A stretch of 64,000 nt of DNA from an uncultured Acidimicrobiales bacterium (GCA_937922045.1 CAKZXA010000063.1:1-64000), one strand, 5' to 3'; shown: positions 2-10,280, counted from the stretch's first letter. Translations and numbers: made by a program. Notes: generated from the letters alone by a model not told the origin.

Positions 2-895
2 AACTATGTGGTGCAGCAGCTTCTGACCGAGCTGGGCTATGAGGTAAACCGTCCGGAAGAAATCGCTCCGGCCACCTTCTTCCCGGCAGCGGCCCAGGGC
101 GACTACGACCTGTGGGCTTCGACCTGGCCTTTGAACCACGACCCGCTGACCGAAGGTGAGTCTCCTGCCGGTGGCGTGATCGCCGACTATGTCGACCATG
201 TTGGCACGATGATGGCTTCCGGCGCCCTGCAAGGCCTGCTGGTCGACAAGGCCAGCGTTGAAGAGTTCGGTTTCACCACGCTCAATGAGCTGCTGGAGAA
301 TCCGGATGCAGTCGCCCACTTCGACTCCGATGATGATGGCAAGGCCGACATCAACGGTTGTGATGATGGTTGGGGTTGTCAGAAGGTAATCAACGACACC
401 ATCACCCAGAATGGTTGGGACGACAAGATCGCTCAGGTTTCGGCCACCCACTCGGCCCTGTTTGCCGAGTCGCAGGCCAGCTTTGATACCGGCGGCCCCG
501 TCCTCCAGTACGTGTGGACCCCAACCGCCTTCGTCGGCAAGCTTGTACCAGGACGCGACGTCCTCTGGCTGGCCGTCGACCCATCGACCACGCTGGACGG
601 CCAGGATGGTGTTTCCGAGGTTGGCGATAGCTGCACGGCTACGCCTTGCACCACCGGCTTTACCCCGTCCGACATCGTAGTGACGGCCAACACGGCGTGG
701 CTTGACGACAACCCAGCGGCCAAGACGCTGCTCGAAGGATTCCAGATGGATCCGGTAGCAGTTGCTGTCCAGGCTGTTGCCATCGATGCCGGTGCCAACT
801 CTGAAGAAGACATCGCCGATGCGGCGGCCAAGTGGATCGTTGACAACCGCGAGACCCTCGATCCCCTGCTCGATTCAGCCAAAGCGGCCGGTTAA
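2..895 (+). CDS. Glycine betaine/carnitine ABC transporter substrate-binding protein (5' end outside window)
   Basis: This is the C-terminal part of a ProX/OpuAC-type binding protein that delivers a quaternary amine to an ABC permease. The reading frame is open to the window edge, so the signal peptide and N-terminal lobe lie outside. Family-like features are the GCDDGWGC segment near residues 117-124 of the visible part, the WTP/aromatic patch (QYVWTPTAFVGKLVPGRD) and the C-terminal 'W..DN.E' helix. Proteobacterial ProX has a comparable cysteine pair in a GWGC motif. Genes for carnitine/betaine breakdown lie 6 kb downstream, so carnitine, gamma-butyrobetaine or glycine betaine is the likely ligand, but the ligand cannot be read from the sequence. 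The permease and ATPase genes are probably upstream of the window. Confidence 0.85.
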   Translation, partial: NYVVQQLLTELGYEVNRPEEIAPATFFPAAAQGDYDLWASTWPLNHDPLTEGESPAGGVIADYVDHVGTMMASGALQGLLVDKASVEEFGFTTLNELLENPDAVAHFDSDDDGKADINGCDDGWGCQKVINDTITQNGWDDKIAQVSATHSALFAESQASFDTGGPVLQYVWTPTAFVGKLVPGRDVLWLAVDPSTTLDGQDGVSEVGDSCTATPCTTGFTPSDIVVTANTAWLDDNPAAKTLLEGFQMDPVAVAVQAVAIDAGANSEEDIADAAAKWIVDNRETLDPLLDSAKAAG

Positions 896-1016
896 CGGAT
901 TGGTTCGGGCCCTGGATGACTATCGTTCTCGGACGGCACCGCTTGTGCGCTGCCGGAAGCACGAGCGGTGGGTCACCCAGGGCCCGCCTCCCCCTGTCGA
1001 TCGTTGAAAGGGTCGG

Positions 1017-2006
1017 ATGAACGTCGAGCTTGACGAGATAGAACGCGTCACCCATCAAGCGATGGTGGCCCACGGTGCCTCCCCTGAGGTCTCGGCGAGT
1101 GTGGCTCGAGCAGTTCGGGCCGCCGAACGAAATCACAACCGCATCTGCGGCCTCTACTACCTAGAGAGCTATTGCGCTCAGCTCAAGACGGGCCGAGTTG
1201 ATGGCACCGCTGTCCCTGTTGTAACTCAACCTCGCCCGTCGGCGGTGCGGGTTGACGGGAAGCTTGGATTCGCTCAGCCAGCCTTCGAGGCCGGGCTGCC
1301 AATCGCCTGTGAAGCGGCAAGAAGCAATGGGGTTGTTGGGCTGTCTATAGAGCACACCCACACCTGCACGGCTCTCGGCTATTTCACCGAGATGGCGGCG
1401 AGACAGGGACTGCTGGCTATCGGTGCAACGAATGCCTCGGCGCGGGTTGCCCCTCCGGGCGGAAAGAGTGCGCTTCTCGGAACGAATCCGATGGCGATGG
1501 CCGTTCCCGACGGCACGGGTGGCCTCGCCTTCCAGTTTGACTTCAGCACAAGCGCCGTTGCCCTCGGACGAATAACGATGGCGGCCGCAGCCGGCGAGTC
1601 AATTCCGGAAGGGTGGGCTGTCGATGCCGACGGCGCCCCTACCACTGATCCGTCGGCGGCCCTCGAAGGGTCGATGCTCAGCGCCGGCGGTTACAAGGGC
1701 TATGCCTTGGGTCTGATGGTTGAAATGTTGGCTTCCGGCCTGACCGGCTCCCGAGCCAGCGTCGATGTGCCTCCGTTGAAGGCGCCGACCGGGCCACCTC
1801 ACGATCTCGGACAGTTCTACATCCTGATCGACCCCGGAGCCTTTGATCAGGAAGGCTTCTCAGCTCGGCTTACCCAGCTGGGGGCTGAAATTGCGAGCCA
1901 AGAGGGCGCCCGTCTGCCAGGCTCGCGACCCAACCCCGATGCTCCGGTCGACGTACCTGCAGATCTTTGGAACAAGATCGAGGCGTTGCGCTACGACGCC
2001 GATTGA
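1017..2006 (+). CDS. Malate/L-lactate dehydrogenase-like oxidoreductase (Ldh2 family)
   Basis: This 329-residue protein matches the Ldh2/MDH2 family (YlbC, ComC, ureidoglycolate and sulfolactate dehydrogenases). These are NAD(P)-dependent 2-hydroxyacid dehydrogenases with a fold unrelated to classical LDH. Visible hallmarks are the H-x-H near residues 113-115 followed by the ALGYFTEMAA helix, the LLGTNPMA segment, the QFDFSTSAVALG cofactor loop, a 'iPegWavDadGapTtDP' stretch and the GGYKGYALGLMVEMLA helix. The length is normal for the family. An ATG start follows a weak GGGTCGG. It sits 121 nt after the binding-protein gene and may be cotranscribed with it. The substrate is unknown; a 2-hydroxyacid made during quaternary-amine use is a guess. 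Confidence 0.85.
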   Translation: MNVELDEIERVTHQAMVAHGASPEVSASVARAVRAAERNHNRICGLYYLESYCAQLKTGRVDGTAVPVVTQPRPSAVRVDGKLGFAQPAFEAGLPIACEAARSNGVVGLSIEHTHTCTALGYFTEMAARQGLLAIGATNASARVAPPGGKSALLGTNPMAMAVPDGTGGLAFQFDFSTSAVALGRITMAAAAGESIPEGWAVDADGAPTTDPSAALEGSMLSAGGYKGYALGLMVEMLASGLTGSRASVDVPPLKAPTGPPHDLGQFYILIDPGAFDQEGFSARLTQLGAEIASQEGARLPGSRPNPDAPVDVPADLWNKIEALRYDAD

Positions 2007-2039
2007 TCGTTCTGATTTCGATGGCGGCTTCGGGTTTAG

Positions 2040-4523
2040 CTATTCGAGCGAGATCGCTGGTTGCGCGGCCTGCTGGTGCTCCCGCAGCCATCGTAGTGCT
2101 GATGGAAGGCCTGACGGACGAGAGAAGAGCCAGCCTTGGATCGATTCGACTTGGGCCGCACGGAGACGTGCTAGCTGTTCCTCGGTTTCAACGTTTTCGG
2201 CCACGACCGGCAGCCCCAGGTTGTGAATTGTCGGCACGATGCTCTTGAGAATTCGTGGATCTTTGGAGGCGGCGAAGGGAGCGCCGAGTTTGATCTCCGT
2301 GAACGGGAGAGCGGCGATTCGATCGAAGTTAGACTCGCCGGTGCCAAAGTCATCGAGCGCGAGGCCAACGTTGAGATCGCGGAGCAGCTGGCAGGCAGCC
2401 GCTAGTTGTTCGAGATCCTGCCCACCTAGTGCTGATTCTGTCAGTTCGACAACGAGAGCGTTCGCGTTTGGATTGTTCTGAAGCCTGAGCGTGTGAGCGA
2501 GTGTGCGAACCTTGGTTGCTATGGGACCTGAGGGTGACATGTTCACGTGCATTTTGATCGTCGGAACGATGGAGCGGAACTGTGGTAGATGTTCGAGCGC
2601 TGTATCGAGCACCCATCTATCGAGCGCCTCGATGAGACCGTCGCGCTCCGCGATCGGTATGAACTCAGCAGGTGAAATCGGCCCGAGTGTGGGATGTGTC
2701 CACCGCACCAAAGCTTCCATTGCGACCGGCTGAGTCGACGTAGCATCGACGATTCCCTGATAGTGGACGCAGAAACCCGATGTCTCAGGTGACCGCAATG
2801 CCTTCTGGAAACAGGAAGAGATGGCCCATTGTCGGCGAGCTTGGACCTGCAGTTCGTCGCTGTACCAGGAGATCGTGTTGCGTTCGCCCTGATCGAGAGC
2901 GAGCTTCGCTCGCTCGAGCGCTGGGCCAGCGGGTGTTGGTTCCGCAAGGGATACCGCCCCAATGGCTACGGTAGGGTCGATCGCCGCAGCACCGATCACC
3001 ATCGGGGCTTCGAGCACCATGGCCAACGCTTCATGCAGCCACGCTTGCCCTTTGCCTTTGGCGATGAGCGTTGTGCCTTGACCGCGCCACAGCCGAATGG
3101 GCTGCTTGGTGTCGTCGAGGATTGAGGCGAGCCGTTCGCTCGTCGCCTGCACGACGAGTTCGGCCTGGGAGCTGTCAGAAGCCCTGGCTAGTGCGATCGC
3201 ATCAAGACAGCTGATTGAAGCTACGACACCTTCAACAGGATCGGCTGACGCGAGGAAGTCGGTCGAGGTGCGTAGCCCCGTAATGGCATCGGTCGTTGCG
3301 CTACGAGTAGCCGCCTGCGCCGCCCGTTCCGATCTGGCCTCTATCGAGTCCAAAGAGAACTCGACGACTTGTGCAATCTGCTCGAACGAGACCTGAAGGT
3401 AGGCAGGAACGTTCTCCCACGCGCCCACCCAAACTCGTTCTGTCTTGGTGACAGCGGGCGCAGCGGTTGGGCCAAGGGCGACCTCAACATTGCTCGAGCC
3501 TAGGAGCTCTGAGCAGACTTCGTTGGCGGCCGCGATAGCCGCTTGGTCTGTGTCGGCCTGTGCGAGGGCTTGGGCTAGTCGGCCTTCGGCTGCTACAACT
3601 GCACTGAGTCGACTGGCTGCGACGCTCGCCTGATGAGTCTTCGCCGCGGTAACGGCTATGAAAGCGATCATGGTGGCAAGGACCGCATTGAGCTCTCCGC
3701 CCATGGACGACGAGGCAGCAGCCATGGCCAGCAATCCGAGCCCGAGACCACCGACGATATAGAGACTGGATCGATAGCACTGTTCTCGAGTCCCCGGTTG
3801 CCCGAACGTGATGTACTCGGGATACGAGGTACCGATGGCATAGCAGGTAATCGCGAGTGCTAAGGCTCGTAAGGGATCGTCTTGCCATGATGAGTCACGT
3901 GCGAGACCTACGGTAAGCGTGAGGTCGAACAGAACGCCGATCAGGCCTCCAGCTGCAAGCCAAACAGCGCCAGCGTAGCGAAACCCTGGTCCGAAGATAA
4001 GGACGAGAAGAACCGATATCGACACCGAGTCGAGGACGATGAGGCTCGCGTTCATCAGTCTCTCAGAGAGCGGAGCCGAGCCCGCCGCGAAGTACTCCCA
4101 AGTCAGCGCGACGACCACCCCAATCGGGATCAAGGCCATAGCAACGGCATCCAAAACATCTCCGAGTCTTGCCATCGCGGCCCGAGCACGACCGGCCTCC
4201 CACATGCCTCCCAACATGATGACGATGCCCGGGATGACGACGGCATCAGCCCAGCTCGGAACAGCCAGCTTTCCGTCCGACATCGCGGTTTCGACCAGAC
4301 GGGCGAGGGTCCCGACTGCCTGAAGACTGACACCGAGGTGAAGAATCCGCAGCGATCGGGGTAGGGCCCGCCAGTTGCGAGCGAGAAAATAGTTTGACGC
4401 CATCCAGGCGGCAAAGAACATGAGCAGTCCGCCGGCAATGGCGGCGTTGAGCGATGGTAGTGCGGCTACTCCAAGGGCGAGGAGTACGGCGCCGGCCCGA
4501 AGACCGTCTTGGCGCGTATGCAT
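2040..4523 (-). CDS. Membrane protein with degenerate GGDEF and intact EAL domain (c-di-GMP phosphodiesterase)
   Basis: The 827-residue protein starts with roughly 290 residues of hydrophobic helices (a putative membrane sensor domain). A linker and a GGDEF-like domain follow at about 405-560. It keeps the TDAITGLR opening, but the GGDEF signature is replaced by RGQGTTL, so cyclase activity is unlikely. The EAL domain (about 565-815) keeps what a phosphodiesterase needs: EALVR, the Asn of HVNMSP, VELTES, DDFGTG, the Lys of EIKLG, AENVE and IQGWLFS. The likely role is hydrolysis of c-di-GMP at the membrane, with the degenerate GGDEF as a possible GTP sensor. It lies 56 nt downstream of the LuxI/GNAT-like gene on the same strand, so the two probably form an operon. 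Confidence 0.9.
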   Translation of the reverse strand: MHTRQDGLRAGAVLLALGVAALPSLNAAIAGGLLMFFAAWMASNYFLARNWRALPRSLRILHLGVSLQAVGTLARLVETAMSDGKLAVPSWADAVVIPGIVIMLGGMWEAGRARAAMARLGDVLDAVAMALIPIGVVVALTWEYFAAGSAPLSERLMNASLIVLDSVSISVLLVLIFGPGFRYAGAVWLAAGGLIGVLFDLTLTVGLARDSSWQDDPLRALALAITCYAIGTSYPEYITFGQPGTREQCYRSSLYIVGGLGLGLLAMAAASSSMGGELNAVLATMIAFIAVTAAKTHQASVAASRLSAVVAAEGRLAQALAQADTDQAAIAAANEVCSELLGSSNVEVALGPTAAPAVTKTERVWVGAWENVPAYLQVSFEQIAQVVEFSLDSIEARSERAAQAATRSATTDAITGLRTSTDFLASADPVEGVVASISCLDAIALARASDSSQAELVVQATSERLASILDDTKQPIRLWRGQGTTLIAKGKGQAWLHEALAMVLEAPMVIGAAAIDPTVAIGAVSLAEPTPAGPALERAKLALDQGERNTISWYSDELQVQARRQWAISSCFQKALRSPETSGFCVHYQGIVDATSTQPVAMEALVRWTHPTLGPISPAEFIPIAERDGLIEALDRWVLDTALEHLPQFRSIVPTIKMHVNMSPSGPIATKVRTLAHTLRLQNNPNANALVVELTESALGGQDLEQLAAACQLLRDLNVGLALDDFGTGESNFDRIAALPFTEIKLGAPFAASKDPRILKSIVPTIHNLGLPVVAENVETEEQLARLRAAQVESIQGWLFSRPSGLPSALRWLREHQQAAQPAISLE

Positions 4524-4579
4524 AGGGCTCTATCGGCGCTGCCGTCGTGCCGTTGAGGTATCTGGCTGGTTCGGAGCAT

Positions 4580-5380
4580 TTATGTCGCAGGTCGAGAAGG
4601 CGGTGACAAGTGGCGCAATCGTGGTGTCGCCGACAGGTCGATGAAGGGCAGAGAAGTGCCGCCACGAGCCGTCCGACCATCTCGATCGATGAAAAGTCTC
4701 CGGAAATCTTCATCGGTGCTCGTCATCGTCTGACCGTGGGTCCGGGGGTCGGTAATTGTTGGCTGGACGGGGCCAAGGAAGTCAACTGGCGGCAGATCGG
4801 CGAGAACATCAAACGTAAGACCCAGCATGGCTCGCAACAATCGAGGACCGGTAACGTCCTGCAGCTGAACGAAGTACTCGGCTCCGAGGTCGAGCCCAAG
4901 ATGATTGAAGGCTGCGCAAAGGGCCTTCACCGGCCAGCGACGGTCGGCGGTTCGCCATTCCGGCAAAACACTTATCGTGGCGCACTCGACTACGTTGGCT
5001 AGCGGATTGAGGCCGTGTAGCTGGAGTGCCGTCGACAGTGAGCAACCCCAGAGGCGGTGAAGATCGGCGTCGATCTTGAGCTTCTCGTTGGGCGCGACGA
5101 GGGCTCGCAACGATCCGACAGGTTCGTCTGATGCACGGTTTATGAGCAAGATCCACACCGAGATCTCCTCGTAGAGCCCATACTCTTCCTCCACCATTGT
5201 GTCCGAGTATCCCAGTGAGTGCGTGAAGACGAATCGCTCGATTGCTCGTGCCGCCTCTGACGCAGGATCATCGGGCTCGACGGCATAGTAGAGGCCCCAC
5301 CGTCCTGCATGAGTGTGATCTCCACGAGAACGATTGAGGGCAGACCAGAAGGGCAAAGGAACATCGTCGGAAGACTCCAT
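4580..5380 (-). CDS. GNAT-fold protein resembling acyl-homoserine-lactone / N-acyl amino acid synthases
   Basis: The function of this 266-residue protein is not certain. The N-terminal half has a layout like LuxI-type and FeeM-type acyltransferases: an aromatic-rich region (FVFTHSLGYSDTM), an acidic VEEEYGLYEE segment around residues 64-73, then a beta strand leading to EPVGSLRAL. That is similar to the 'D-x-YD...G-x-Rl' order of autoinducer synthases. A second strand (VVECATISVLPEWR) could correspond to the 'E-x-sRf-v' strand. The C-terminal ~50 residues look disordered. No signal peptide or membrane span is visible. It precedes the EAL gene by 56 nt. A different GNAT substrate, or loss of catalysis, cannot be excluded. 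Confidence 0.55.
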   Translation of the reverse strand: MESSDDVPLPFWSALNRSRGDHTHAGRWGLYYAVEPDDPASEAARAIERFVFTHSLGYSDTMVEEEYGLYEEISVWILLINRASDEPVGSLRALVAPNEKLKIDADLHRLWGCSLSTALQLHGLNPLANVVECATISVLPEWRTADRRWPVKALCAAFNHLGLDLGAEYFVQLQDVTGPRLLRAMLGLTFDVLADLPPVDFLGPVQPTITDPRTHGQTMTSTDEDFRRLFIDRDGRTARGGTSLPFIDLSATPRLRHLSPPSRPAT

Positions 5381-5420
5381 CGAAGCACTCTAGCTGGCTG
5401 GTTTCTGGTGACCAGAGACC

Positions 5421-6218
5421 ATGGGTTCCGTTGTGAAACGACGGTGCTGCGATCTCGCTGAGCCACTAGGACAAGAAGCCTCGGAACGCTACGATCAGGT
5501 TATATCTATTCGGACCCCTGGCGAAGCTGCGCAGCCTGAGAAGTCCCTCATAGGCGATGCTCTCGATGACATCCGCTCCCACCGTGGACTTCCGGTAGTT
5601 GTCGTTACCCTGGCCCTGTTCTGGCTTGCCTTCCAGTGGGGCCTAGGTAACGACGTGGTTCTGCCGACGCTTGCGGCGCGCTCTCTGGTGGCTATCGATG
5701 ATGGCCAAACGTGGATGAGCGGGGTGGCCGCCGTTCTGGTTGCTGGCTTGGCCGCCTTCGTTTTCTGGTCCGCCACCCAGCTTCTTGACTGCGTGGTTGT
5801 CTTAGGAACCCTGAGATGGCTGCCGCGGATGACGGCACGGTTTGGCCGTTGGGTGCGATTTCGGGGTTGGGTGTCGACCTATGATCAGATGTCGTGGTCG
5901 ACTCGATGGTCCATCGCCTACCTCGCAGGAGCGTCGGCGGTCTGTCTGATCGATGTCTTTGCCACCGGCCAGCCCGGCATCGGCAAGCGTTGGAAAATTG
6001 TCGCTCAGACGGTGTTGCTTTCCTCCGGGTCGGTGGCGTTGGTCGTACTGCTCATAGCGTCGGCCGTCATGGCTTCACGTCGGTTCCCGTCGCTTGAGCC
6101 GGTCGCATCTGTGCTCCTTCGCTTTGCGCCAAATCCGCTTACGTGGCTTGTGGTGGTGGGCCTAGCGGTGGCGACTGGACGTCTGCGAACAGCTCTATCT
6201 GCTCCGAAGCGGAGCTGA
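5421..6218 (+). CDS. Hypothetical integral membrane protein
   Basis: This 265-residue protein is of unrecognised family. Residues 1-55 are polar. Hydrophobic segments follow at about 56-75 (LPVVVVTLALFWLAFQWGL), 101-121, 168-185, 200-222 and 240-257, suggesting about five membrane spans with no obvious catalytic motif. The start is uncertain; an in-frame GTG at 5433 is an alternative. It is divergent from the LuxI/GNAT-like gene with only 40 nt between them, so the two may share a control region. Its 3' end overlaps the 3' end of the IclR gene on the other strand by 80 nt. Confidence 0.6.
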   Translation: MGSVVKRRCCDLAEPLGQEASERYDQVISIRTPGEAAQPEKSLIGDALDDIRSHRGLPVVVVTLALFWLAFQWGLGNDVVLPTLAARSLVAIDDGQTWMSGVAAVLVAGLAAFVFWSATQLLDCVVVLGTLRWLPRMTARFGRWVRFRGWVSTYDQMSWSTRWSIAYLAGASAVCLIDVFATGQPGIGKRWKIVAQTVLLSSGSVALVVLLIASAVMASRRFPSLEPVASVLLRFAPNPLTWLVVVGLAVATGRLRTALSAPKRS

Positions 6219-7014
6219 GCCCAAGCAATGTTCTGGCTCGGCCGTCTACGGTACGAACGAGTTCGTCGCCTGCGTCGACCAGGTGATCGGGAGCGAAGCG
6301 GTAGCTGGGTCCATAGAGACTGATGGTGGCCAGAAGTCCAGAATCGTCGATGATCGGCACCGCCAGGCCATTCACCCCCTCATCGAGCTCCTGGTCGGTC
6401 CATGCATAGCCTTGGGCCATAATCTGACCGAGGCGTCGGCGGATGCGATCCGGGTCGACGACCGAGGTCGGTGTGGCTGTTTCGAGGGCGGTCGTGAGAT
6501 AGCGGTTGAGGCGATCTTCGTCCCAATGGGCCATGGTCACGAGGCCGGGGGCCACCAGGTGGAAGTGGTGGCGCGAGCCATCCAGGTCGGGCACGGTGAC
6601 CGCCTGATCGGCCTCGACCTGGACGAGATAGAGCAGCCGCTCCCCATCGTCTATGGACAGGGCCGCATTTTCGGAGAAGACGCTCGCCAGCTCGGTTAGG
6701 AGTGGACGGAGATGATCGTGGAGCAAGACCGCACCCTCGCCTCGCGCTGGTGAAAGCGTGCGCAGTGCGGGCCCGGACGAGAGGGCACCGTCCGCCTGGC
6801 GTTTCACCATGCCGAGCTCTTTCAGCGTTGTGGCGAGCCGGGAGACAGTTGAACGCGGGAGCCCGGTGCGTCGGCTGATTTCACGGACCCCGACCGGTTC
6901 GCCGTCAGCCACGATCGTCTGGAGGACCAGGAAGGCCCGCTCGACGCTGTTGCGTTTGGGCGTGGGCTGGCTGGCAGGCTCTTGACGGTTGGTGGCAGGA
7001 TTCATACACTTCAA
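6139..7014 (-). CDS. IclR-family transcriptional regulator, probable controller of the carnitine operon
   Basis: The 291-residue protein has the two-domain IclR layout. The N-terminal winged helix (about 22-85) contains 'NSVERAFLVLQTIV', then 'VREISRRTGLPRSTVSRLATTL'. The C-terminal effector domain includes 'GYAWTDQELDEGVNGLAVPI', the typical 'G-y-a-x-d-x-E-x-x-x-G-v-x-x-x-a-v-P' block. It is divergent from the gamma-butyrobetaine dioxygenase gene with a palindromic region between them, so it most likely autoregulates and controls that operon in response to a quaternary amine or pathway intermediate. The first ATG gives MKCMNPA; an ATG three codons later is also possible. The last 80 nt overlap the convergent membrane-protein gene. 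Confidence 0.92.
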   Translation of the reverse strand: MKCMNPATNRQEPASQPTPKRNSVERAFLVLQTIVADGEPVGVREISRRTGLPRSTVSRLATTLKELGMVKRQADGALSSGPALRTLSPARGEGAVLLHDHLRPLLTELASVFSENAALSIDDGERLLYLVQVEADQAVTVPDLDGSRHHFHLVAPGLVTMAHWDEDRLNRYLTTALETATPTSVVDPDRIRRRLGQIMAQGYAWTDQELDEGVNGLAVPIIDDSGLLATISLYGPSYRFAPDHLVDAGDELVRTVDGRARTLLGLSSASEQIELFADVQSPPLGPPPQAT

Positions 7015-7025
7015 CTATCTGATGC

Positions 7026-7049
7026 TGGGACGTCCCATTCTATGGGACG
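7026..7049. promoter_or_regulatory. Overlapping palindromes between iclR and the carnitine operon (likely operator)
   Basis: TGGGACGTCCCA (7026-7037) is a perfect 12-nt palindrome. It overlaps a second perfect repeat, CGTCCCAT-TCT-ATGGGACG (7031-7049, 8-nt arms, 3-nt spacer). Three TGGGAC-type half sites are therefore packed into 24 nt, about 12 nt upstream of the iclR start and 40 nt upstream of the dioxygenase ATG. IclR regulators bind short palindromes as dimers or tetramers, often between divergent genes. A further related half site (ATGTCCAT) follows at about 7058-7065. Confidence 0.65.
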
Positions 7050-7088
7050 CATGAGGAAATGTCCATAGGTGGATGAAAGGATTTGGAT

Positions 7089-8327
7089 ATGGCCATTGCG
7101 GCTGAGACACCTGGTGGGTCGCTGTCGATACTGAGCCCTGATTTCTACGACTATGACTGGACGCCATTGTCTTCGGCCACGATCGTCGACGATTTTGTTC
7201 TTGTGCGATGGCCCGACGGCGTCGAACTCAAGGCGTACAAACTCTGGCTGCGCGAAAACGCGGTGGGCGTTGGTGGCGTGGATAGAGCGACCCGTGAGGG
7301 CTTGCTCGACCCAGCGGATCTCGATGCAACCGAACGAATCAAGGCGGCCAGAGTGGCCACAAGCGGCGCTCTCGAAATCGACTGGGAACATGAAAAGGCT
7401 TCTGTTTCGTACCACCCAGGCTGGCTCCGCCACGTGGCTGAGGGCAAGCATCGTGCCGACGCGTGGGTCCCGTCCCAACAGAGCTGGACCGCGGCTGAAT
7501 GGAGCGCTCCTCCCACCCATGAAGCGGCCGGCTTCGATGCCGACCGAGTTAGGACGCTCGAGCCATGGGTTGATGATCTCCTCCGCTACGGCATCGCCCG
7601 CCTTCGGAACCTCCCGGTCGATCTCGGCACGTGTCTTCGGGTAGCTGAGACCGTAGGAGCCGTGCGGGATACCAACTTTGGTCGAACCTGGGATGTCAAG
7701 GCCGACATCGAGATGGCGGGCGCCGCCGACACCAACAGCACAGCCAACACCAACCTGCGGCTTGGCCCGCACACCGACCTTCCCACCCGAGAAACTCCTC
7801 CCGGTTTTCAGTTCCTGTTCTGCTACGCGAACGATGCTCAAGGCGGGTATTCCACCATGACAGACGGCCTCGCCGTCGTTCGGTATCTCGAGGCCAACCA
7901 CGCCGAACACTTCGAAGCACTCACCACCTTGCATTGGGTGTTTTTCAACCGGGGTCCTGGAATCGATCATCGATGGTCCGGCCCTTTCATCGACCTCGGT
8001 GTCGCTGGCGCTCCGCTCACCCTGCGGGCCTTCTATCCTGTGCGGGGCTTTCCCGATATGGATCCTGTCGACATGCCCCGTGCCTATGAAGCCATGTCGG
8101 TCTTCAGCCGACTGGCAGCCTCCGACGAGTTTCAGATGCGCTACCCGTTTGAGCCCGGCGATCTCGTCGGCTTCGACAACCGCCGGATATTGCACGGGCG
8201 CGATGCGTTCACCGCCGGTGGCTACCGGCACCTTCGAGGCGCCTACGTCGACCACGATGAAATCTACTCGTTTGCCCGTGTTGCCAATCGCCGGGCGGCT
8301 TCTGTCGCCCACTATCGACAAGGATGA
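7089..8327 (+). CDS. Gamma-butyrobetaine 2-oxoglutarate dioxygenase-like enzyme
   Basis: This 413-residue enzyme of the BBOX/TMLH (TauD-like) family probably hydroxylates gamma-butyrobetaine to L-carnitine using Fe(II), O2 and 2-oxoglutarate. Residues ~25-105 form the GBBH-like N-terminal domain (VRWPDGVEL, LWLREN, YHPGWLRHV). The catalytic jelly roll holds GPHTDLP (Fe ligands His and Asp), ILHGRDAF (distal His) and RHLRGAYVDHDEIYS (2-oxoglutarate-binding Arg region). The N-terminal domain lacks the usual Cys-x-Cys-x2-Cys zinc ligands after LREN. The ATG at 7089 is chosen because AAAGGA lies 7 nt upstream; an in-frame TTG is at 7083. It overlaps the next gene by 4 nt. Confidence 0.85.
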   Translation: MAIAAETPGGSLSILSPDFYDYDWTPLSSATIVDDFVLVRWPDGVELKAYKLWLRENAVGVGGVDRATREGLLDPADLDATERIKAARVATSGALEIDWEHEKASVSYHPGWLRHVAEGKHRADAWVPSQQSWTAAEWSAPPTHEAAGFDADRVRTLEPWVDDLLRYGIARLRNLPVDLGTCLRVAETVGAVRDTNFGRTWDVKADIEMAGAADTNSTANTNLRLGPHTDLPTRETPPGFQFLFCYANDAQGGYSTMTDGLAVVRYLEANHAEHFEALTTLHWVFFNRGPGIDHRWSGPFIDLGVAGAPLTLRAFYPVRGFPDMDPVDMPRAYEAMSVFSRLAASDEFQMRYPFEPGDLVGFDNRRILHGRDAFTAGGYRHLRGAYVDHDEIYSFARVANRRAASVAHYRQG

Positions 8328-9241
8328 TTATGACCGATACTTCAACCACACAACATAAGGGTGTGTTCATCACCTGCGCCGTCACCGGAGGTGGCTACAC
8401 CACCCATAAGTCTGACAAGGTTCCGATCACTCCGGAACAGATCGCCACCGATTGCATCGATGCGGCCAGAGCCGGTGCTGCTGTTGTTCATGTCCATGTG
8501 CGCGAAGACGACGGCATGCCTTCGCGCGACATCGACAAGTTCATCCAAGTCGCCGATCTCGTCCGCTCCTCAGACGTTGACGTTGTGCTGAACCTCACAG
8601 CGGGCATGGGGGGCGATCTCGTGCTCGGTGATGTGGAAAAGCCGTTGCCGCCTGCTGTCGAGGGAACCGATATGGCCGGGGCCACCGAGCGGGTGGAGCA
8701 CGTTCGCCGGATCCGGCCTGAGATCTGCACGCTCGACTGTGGGTCTATGAACTTCGGCGAGGGCGACTACATAATGACCAACACGCCCTCCGCTCTGGAG
8801 GCCATGGCCACCCAGATGACAGCGATGGGCGTGCGGATCGAGATCGAAGCGTTCGACACTGGCCATCTGGCTCACGCCAAGAGCCTGGTTGAGCGTGGCT
8901 TTATCGAGGACCCCGTCGTGGTCCAGCTCTGTATGGGGGTGCCCTGGGGCGCTCCCGATGATCTCAACACCTTCATGGCCATGATCAACAATGTGCCCGA
9001 CTCGTGGACGTTCTCTGCGTTCTCGCTGGGTCGCAACCAGCTCAAATATGTGTCGCTGGCGGCCTTCGCCGGGGGCAACATCCGGGTCGGTCTCGAAGAC
9101 AACATCTACCTCGACCGGGGTGTGTTGGCCTCAAATCGCGACCTGGTCGAGCGGGCGGCGACGATCCTCGAGGCTCAGAACTACAACATCCTTTCTCCGG
9201 CTCAGGTTCGGGACAATCTGCAGCTGACCAAGCATGGCTGA
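8324..9241 (+). CDS. Beta-keto-acid cleavage enzyme (BKACE, DUF849), probably 3-dehydrocarnitine-specific
   Basis: This 305-residue TIM-barrel enzyme condenses a beta-keto acid with acetyl-CoA to give acetoacetate and a new acyl-CoA. Family marks are the CAVTGGG start, VVHVHVRED (zinc-binding His-x-His near residues 46-48), LNLTAGMGG, LDCGSMNFG, and the C-terminal GLEDNIYLDRG. Sitting between a butyrobetaine dioxygenase and a carnitine dehydrogenase, it most likely cleaves 3-dehydrocarnitine to betainyl-CoA plus acetoacetate, the role of CdhC in Pseudomonas. The start ATG overlaps the upstream stop (ATGA), and the end overlaps the next gene by 8 nt, so all three genes are translationally linked. 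No betainyl-CoA thioesterase gene is visible here. Confidence 0.88.
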   Translation: MIMTDTSTTQHKGVFITCAVTGGGYTTHKSDKVPITPEQIATDCIDAARAGAAVVHVHVREDDGMPSRDIDKFIQVADLVRSSDVDVVLNLTAGMGGDLVLGDVEKPLPPAVEGTDMAGATERVEHVRRIRPEICTLDCGSMNFGEGDYIMTNTPSALEAMATQMTAMGVRIEIEAFDTGHLAHAKSLVERGFIEDPVVVQLCMGVPWGAPDDLNTFMAMINNVPDSWTFSAFSLGRNQLKYVSLAAFAGGNIRVGLEDNIYLDRGVLASNRDLVERAATILEAQNYNILSPAQVRDNLQLTKHG

Positions 9242-10280
9242 GGACACGACGGAGGATCCAACACGCACCGACGGAGCCGAGCCAGCGGTGATCGAGCCGG
9301 TGGAGATCCGCCAGGCCGCCACCATCGGATGTGGTGTGATCGGAGCGGCGTGGACGGCCCGCATGGTGTTGCGAGGAGTCGAGGTTAAGGTCTTCGATCT
9401 GGCCCCCGACGCAGCCGAGATCGTCGAAGAAGTCTTGGCAAACGCCCGGCTGGCTTGGGCTGAAGTCGGGATCGCGGTCGACGACGCAGGTTCCTATGAG
9501 CTGGTGGATTCGGTGGCTGAAGCGGTTGCCGGTGCAGAGTTCGTACAGGAGAGTGTGCCGGAACGGCCCGAGATAAAAGCCACGGTGTTGAATGAGATCG
9601 AGGCCGCTGTCGGCACCGACGTGATTATCGGCTCGTCCACCTCTGGTATCCGCCCGTCATCGATGCAGGAATCGATGACGCATCCTGAGCGGCTCGTGGT
9701 TGGTCATCCCTTCAACCCTGTCTATCTCCTTCCTCTGGTCGAGGTCGTTGGCGGCCAGCACACGCCGATCGAGATCATTCGCAAAGCCCAAGGTATCTAC
9801 GCCTTCCTGGGCATGCATCCACTGCATGTGCGGGTGGAGATCGACGCCTTCATTGCCGATCGGCTCCTGGAAGCGGTGTGGCGAGAGGCCTTGTGGCTTG
9901 TGAACGACGGGGTGGCGACGACGGCCGAGATCGATGACGCCATGATCTACGGCTTCGGATTGCGCTGGGCGCAGATGGGTCTCTTTGAGACCTACCGGGT
10001 CGCTGGCGGCAAGGGCGGATTTCGCCACTTCGTGGAACAGTTCGGACCCACGCTTGCGTGGCCCTGGACCAAACTCATGGACACACCCGAGTTCACACCG
10101 GAGCTGGTCGACAAGCTGGTAGCCCAGTCAGACGCCCAGTCGGGGGCTTACGACGTGCGGGAGTTGGAGCGGATCCGCGATCGAAACATCGCCGGATTCT
10201 TGAACGTGTTGGCCGATAACCGATGGGCTGCAGGCAATGTCATCCGCCGAGCCAGAGGTGAAGCCTCAGACGTCGAGTAG
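9234..10280 (+). CDS. L-carnitine 3-dehydrogenase
   Basis: This 348-residue NAD-dependent dehydrogenase of the 3-hydroxyacyl-CoA dehydrogenase superfamily probably oxidises L-carnitine to 3-dehydrocarnitine. The Rossmann motif is IGCGVIGAAW near residues 32-41. ESVPERPEIK, GSSTSGIRPS and VVGHPFNPVYLLPLVEVVGG carry the catalytic core, including the active-site His of GHPFNP. The C-terminal helical domain (GFGLRWAQMGLFETYRVAGG) is typical of carnitine dehydrogenases. The ~22-residue acidic N-terminal extension is unusual. Some homologues carry a fused C-terminal thioesterase domain; this one ends without it. It is the last gene of the three-gene operon. Confidence 0.88.
   Translation: MAEDTTEDPTRTDGAEPAVIEPVEIRQAATIGCGVIGAAWTARMVLRGVEVKVFDLAPDAAEIVEEVLANARLAWAEVGIAVDDAGSYELVDSVAEAVAGAEFVQESVPERPEIKATVLNEIEAAVGTDVIIGSSTSGIRPSSMQESMTHPERLVVGHPFNPVYLLPLVEVVGGQHTPIEIIRKAQGIYAFLGMHPLHVRVEIDAFIADRLLEAVWREALWLVNDGVATTAEIDDAMIYGFGLRWAQMGLFETYRVAGGKGGFRHFVEQFGPTLAWPWTKLMDTPEFTPELVDKLVAQSDAQSGAYDVRELERIRDRNIAGFLNVLADNRWAAGNVIRRARGEASDVE

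Follow-up and report, generated by a model that had tools for sequence, protein, structure and literature searches.

Does the gene pair at positions 2040 to 5380 of this DNA encode a signal synthase together with a c-di-GMP enzyme that responds to its product? The stretch analysed here (the window) comprises bases 1-64000 of a contig from a 4.88 Mb genome that is 96.9% complete. A sequence-only reading had placed a 266-residue GNAT protein 56 nt upstream of a membrane EAL protein and proposed a compact signalling module. Both ORFs exist as placed: on the minus strand the GNAT ORF comes first, and 56 nt separate it from the downstream membrane EAL ORF. The features of the locus are as follows.

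4580 to 5380, minus strand: putative GNAT-fold acyltransferase of the LuxI/FeeM type, 266 aa (predicted fold and residue alignment)
2040 to 4523, minus strand: c-di-GMP phosphodiesterase-like membrane protein, 827 aa (Pfam and motifs)
3642 to 4445, minus strand: N-terminal membrane domain of about nine helices in that protein, residues 27-294, proposed sensor (hhalign homology to GNAT-linked partners elsewhere)
2844 to 3290, minus strand: degenerate GGDEF domain, with WRGQG where GGDEF is expected
2115 to 2792, minus strand: EAL domain, residues 578-803, catalytic residues intact
5421 to 6218, plus strand: small membrane protein of no known family, divergent and 40 nt from the GNAT start

The genes surrounding the pair (8-10280 of the window) resemble a set for uptake and breakdown of quaternary amines such as carnitine or betaine. 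They encode a ProX-like binding protein (recognised by sequence only), an Ldh_2 dehydrogenase, an IclR regulator, a TauD/gamma-butyrobetaine-hydroxylase-like oxygenase, a BKACE protein and a 3-hydroxyacyl-CoA dehydrogenase. At four other loci of the window's family the GNAT/EAL pair lies in a recurring neighbourhood that encodes acyl-CoA-ligase-like, acetyl-CoA-acetyltransferase-like, PknB-like kinase and PabA-like proteins, all judged from their sequences alone; the window's pair sits elsewhere.

To what extent the two genes belong together was addressed by their co-occurrence in relatives, a check proposed with the original reading. The GNAT protein served as the sole query, so that its neighbour was not selected for. 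The gene was found in 13 of 148 relatives, the window's genome included, and in 41 of 397 genomes of the order. A scan of named genomes contributed 20 loci, including Blastococcus, Modestobacter, Paractinoplanes and Thermoleophilia; with the single window GNAT as query of these contigs nothing was found, and the loci emerged with a closer alignment. A plasmid search gave no match. After removal of duplicates the collection holds 57 distinct GNAT loci from Acidimicrobiales and other Actinomycetota.

A membrane GGDEF/EAL-type protein adjoins the GNAT gene in 53 of these 57 loci, which are related by descent and thus do not form an independent count. Of the first 47 loci, 41 have an EAL gene no more than 1 kb away and one has it at 1.2 kb; two further neighbours, counted among the 53, have the same kind of membrane domain and a PAS domain and are cut by the contig end. 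The remaining 10 loci contribute nine EAL neighbours. Two of the four loci without a partner have the GNAT gene at a contig edge. A recheck of apparently partnerless loci showed a second GNAT gene in one genome, located beside such a membrane protein. Separately, Paractinoplanes maris has a pair of a SpeD-like gene (see below) and a GNAT gene that lacks an EAL neighbour and adjoins a LacI-type regulator.

The pair occurs in all four relative orientations, demonstrating that the linkage has survived repeated rearrangement. Distances among the GNAT proteins and among their partners are correlated (Spearman 0.52, reached in 0 of 2000 permutations), a figure that ignores species history. The pairing extends to distant GNAT clades, and at two loci added later from other families of the phylum the GNAT gene again adjoins one for a membrane protein with GGDEF or GGDEF/EAL. 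Two more observations concern far relatives: one genome (L143) has a highly diverged GNAT as well as a SpeD-like gene and a membrane GGDEF/EAL protein, and in another (L145) a weakly related GNAT gene is divergent to a membrane GGDEF protein. Judging by these cases, the association may predate the families in our alignments. Could the genes nevertheless be chance neighbours with unrelated functions? The pair is patchy and most genomes in the window's genus lack it, as chance would allow. However, with 20 EAL matches in the 4.88 Mb genome only about 1% of genes are expected to have such a neighbour, against 53 of 57 loci in four orientations. We therefore reject a chance pairing on the conservation of the pair and give it next to no credence.

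What kind of enzyme is the GNAT protein? The LuxI/FeeM-like topology noticed from the sequence is confirmed by an AlphaFold2 model built with 20 relatives (mean pLDDT 82, pTM 0.82). FeeM is the first match of this model in Foldseek (E 1.4e-7, TM 0.75 on FeeM), followed by RpaI, BjaI and TofI amid other GNATs. In VIA-align, acyl-homoserine-lactone (AHL) synthases and FeeM lead the list, with Z of 16.3 for RpaI, 16.1 for FeeM, 15.8 for BjaI, 14.9 for TofI and 14.8 for LasI; generic acetyltransferases mostly reach Z of about 12 and a few short GNATs 14-15. The predicted fold thus agrees with the comparison to LuxI and FeeM that had been suggested. Of the two outcomes that the original reading named as refuting it, a fold unlike LuxI/FeeM and a lack of the pair in relatives, neither was obtained; the membrane domain common to the partners and the SpeD-like gene of relatives, both treated below, were beyond its reach. 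Searches of solved structures gave nothing significant for the window protein by sequence, and for the family profile the top match, LasI, is collinear but non-significant, which leaves the AlphaFold model as the basis of the fold claim.

In the LasI profile alignment, which is non-significant (E 0.49), Glu132 (codon 4985-4987) aligns to the catalytic Glu101 of LasI and corresponds to the catalytic glutamate of FeeM. This position is Glu in the window protein and Asp in the other 20 members, i.e. an acidic residue is conserved throughout. Arg92, also conserved, aligns with Arg70 of LasI. The equivalents of LasI Trp33 and Arg104 are not conserved in the family.

These data bear directly on whether the protein is a true AHL synthase of the LuxI family. 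Such an assignment would fit the presence of RpaI, BjaI, TofI and LasI among the top VIA-align matches and the collinear LasI profile match. Against it, PF00765 (Autoind_synth) gives weak matches to 4 of 21 members, with a best E of 0.011, and none to the window protein, and two LasI residues, Trp33 and Arg104, have no conserved counterpart. We consider a LuxI-family AHL synthase very improbable.

Other named families describe the protein no better. A Pfam search with the window protein gave no match; PF21926 (FeeM) is found weakly in 4 of 21 members, below the cut-off (best E 0.0013). By sequence the nearest family is TIGR03694, the exosortase-associated acyltransferases, which 17 of 21 members match with a best E of 3.9e-10; the next-nearest, Acetyltransf_5, FeeM and Autoind_synth, are all weak. 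The window protein scores a sub-threshold 19 bits with TIGR03694 (NCBIfam cut-off 112), and no exosortase (PF09721) is present in the 96.9% complete genome. An exosortase link was rejected on these two grounds. Because the fold is shared while the LuxI residues Trp33 and Arg104, the Pfam and NCBIfam thresholds and an exosortase are all missing, we regard the protein as a new subfamily in the group of LuxI, FeeM and exosortase acyltransferases, outside every named family.

The partner carries an EAL domain that is intact (PF00563, E 9e-55) and keeps all eight catalytic and metal-binding residues, and a GGDEF domain that is degenerate (no Pfam GGDEF match), as read originally. The protein aligns with DosP, and the EAL residues Glu603, Asn661, Glu693, Asp724, Asp725, Lys745, Glu776 and Gln796 are invariant in an alignment of 18 partners. 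Judged by its motifs, the window protein would allow phosphodiesterase output alone. An intact GGDEF is also kept by most partners in the clade that carries the SpeD-like gene (the SpeD clade).

The N-terminal region of about 300 residues forms one family among the SpeD-clade partners. Compared with the profile of this family, the membrane domain of the window's partner gives a clear hhalign match when five partners of the window's family are used (97.4%, E 1.2e-11) and a match of 87% (E 4e-6) with the window sequence alone. Against the membrane-domain profile, none of the 11 further EAL proteins in this genome whose N-terminus is long enough exceeds 0.5%. AlphaFold predicts approximately nine helices with moderate confidence. 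The superfamily of this domain is wider than the GNAT module, occurring in 113 of 397 genomes compared with 41 of 397 for the GNAT gene, and many of these genomes lack the GNAT; an exclusive link of the domain with the module was consequently rejected.

In four genomes, close relatives of the membrane EAL protein are encoded at places where neither a GNAT nor a SpeD-like gene was found in the vicinity; these proteins are possibly receivers without a synthase. Homologs of the small membrane protein at 5421-6218 adjoin the GNAT/EAL pair in two relatives. They are also found beside a GNAT-less membrane-EAL protein at one locus and near another at a second. This protein may be an accessory of the membrane-EAL family.

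Many relatives carry a third gene. In 26 of 57 loci the gene immediately upstream of that for the GNAT, mostly only a few bases away, encodes a SpeD-like protein of about 125 aa, a homolog of AdoMet decarboxylase; at one locus the two are fused. In Blastococcus and Modestobacter the genes for EAL, SpeD-like and GNAT proteins follow in this order on one strand. The SpeD-like proteins tested score 33-41 bits with PF02675, above the cut-off of 25. A profile search of solved structures returned no AdoMetDC match for the family, the identity of which rests on Pfam. A different, more canonical SpeD is present in just 2 of 30 scanned genomes carrying the GNAT or SpeD-like gene.

The processing residues of SpeD from T. 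maritima are Ser63, His68 and Cys83 (PMC10407285). When a canonical SpeD-SpeE fusion is taken as reference, the 25 aligned sequences of the family retain the Ser that forms the pyruvoyl group as well as the Cys, and Tyr occupies the His68 position in 25 of 25. Decarboxylase activity of the SpeD-like protein is doubtful because the processing His is Tyr in all 25. The gene has no counterpart in the window: PF02675 is absent throughout the genome, and a SpeD in the window's own module was rejected for this reason. In the GNAT tree, the window's clade lies inside a larger group with SpeD-bearing members, at a branch support of 88/80, which is not strong. Judging from this tree, the window lineage has likely lost the SpeD-like gene secondarily.

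Pyruvoyl decarboxylases act on free amines. On this chemical ground, the decarboxylation step would have to come before N-acylation, and the product would more likely be an N-acyl amine. The SpeD-like neighbour also bears on the idea that the GNAT acylates a protein, e.g. its EAL partner or the partner's membrane domain, and thereby regulates it post-translationally. The strict pairing with one protein family is in line with this idea, as is the fold match to generic protein acetyltransferases of the GNAT type (Z of about 12). However, protein acetyltransferases rank in VIA-align behind FeeM and the AHL synthases, whose substrates are small molecules, and FeeM is first in Foldseek; the SpeD-like neighbour and its fusion to the GNAT likewise point to small-molecule amine chemistry. 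Acylation of a protein is, in our view, rather improbable.

Taken as a conserved pair, the two genes may encode a synthase and a c-di-GMP sensor, an N-acyl amine or amino-acid product being sensed by the neighbouring membrane enzyme. On balance we lean, if only slightly, towards this reading. The GNAT would transfer an acyl chain from acyl-ACP or acyl-CoA onto the amino group of a small molecule, so that a lipophilic N-acylated amine or amino acid is formed. The membrane protein encoded next to the GNAT would be the dedicated receiver, its domain of about nine helices sensing the product or a membrane altered by it. By setting the activity of the EAL phosphodiesterase the receiver would then let the signal shift c-di-GMP. 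In many relatives, where the receiver also has an intact GGDEF, the upstream SpeD-like protein could supply a decarboxylated amine as acceptor; the window lineage, having no SpeD-like gene, would use another amine or amino acid.

The same pair can be read in the opposite direction, from c-di-GMP to lipid: the GNAT would make an aminolipid for the membrane, or a biosurfactant, in place of a signal, and the membrane c-di-GMP enzyme would control the timing of its production or use. Long-chain N-acyl tyrosines produced by FeeM-like synthases function as biosurfactants, and two metagenomic enzymes of this kind, Nas343 and Nas354, bear a C-terminal PilZ-type c-di-GMP-binding domain (PMC4897644). 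This precedent runs from c-di-GMP to the enzyme and hence supports the lipid reading. However, domain searches of the GNAT protein revealed neither PilZ nor any other domain that binds c-di-GMP. Its conserved partner is membrane-bound and carries enzyme domains for c-di-GMP instead of being a c-di-GMP effector, and the linkage is kept in divergent and convergent orientations. We hold a lipid or surfactant role to be unlikely, although it is the main rival of the signal reading.

Returning to the synthase and sensor reading, we tentatively extend it, with clearly less assurance, to an actinobacterial signalling class in which a diverged SpeD makes an amine, an enzyme of LuxI/FeeM fold acylates it, and a dedicated membrane GGDEF/EAL receptor reads the N-acyl amine directly and sets c-di-GMP, with no LuxR-type regulator. 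The window would represent a SpeD-less, phosphodiesterase-only form of this class. Acyl-amide quorum sensing has been described mainly from Gram-negative bacteria, where the signals are read by LuxR-type proteins. If true, the proposal would add a second architecture for acyl-amide signalling, a conserved pair in Actinomycetota with a SpeD-like partner in many lineages. It would also provide a defined input for membrane GGDEF/EAL proteins, whose ligands are mostly unknown so far. The pair or triad is described nowhere in the open-access literature searched. A synthase joined to a c-di-GMP receptor is a known kind of system; the unit formed by this synthase subfamily with a SpeD-like partner and a membrane receiver is undescribed.

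Among known systems FeeM comes closest to the module in chemistry and RpfF/RpfR in logic. With FeeM-type enzymes the GNAT protein shares the fold, an equivalent of the catalytic Glu and, through Nas343 and Nas354, the tie of the enzyme class to c-di-GMP. It differs in falling below the Pfam FeeM cut-off, in having no PilZ, and in its membrane c-di-GMP partner, joined in relatives by the SpeD-like protein. With the LuxI type (LasI, TofI, BjaI, RpaI) it has in common the fold, the order of motifs and the Arg70 and Glu101 equivalents, whereas those of Trp33 and Arg104 are missing and the window protein is missed by Pfam Autoind_synth. The PEP-CTERM/exosortase acyltransferases of TIGR03694 are the best family match by sequence, yet the window protein stays far from their cut-off in a genome devoid of exosortase.

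The SpeD-like proteins recall the SpeD-derived arginine and ornithine decarboxylases (PMC10407285) in being AdoMetDC homologs that keep Ser and Cys, mostly with no canonical spermidine-pathway SpeD. Unlike these, they have Tyr for the processing His, sit with an acyltransferase and a c-di-GMP enzyme, and occur just in the window's relatives.

For the module as a whole the comparison is with RpfF/RpfR of Burkholderia and Cronobacter, in which RpfF, the synthase of the fatty-acid-derived signal BDSF, is conserved with RpfR, a GGDEF-EAL receptor; the signal stimulates the phosphodiesterase activity of RpfR (PMC4698668). The synthase chemistry is unrelated: RpfF belongs to the enoyl-CoA hydratases and RpfR is described with a PAS sensor, whereas here the putative synthase is a GNAT and the candidate sensor a membrane domain of about nine helices; a SpeD-like gene is not described there. 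In both systems a synthase, putative in our case, is conserved beside a GGDEF/EAL protein, in 53 of 57 loci here, and the sensing known from RpfR is what we propose for the membrane partner of the GNAT.
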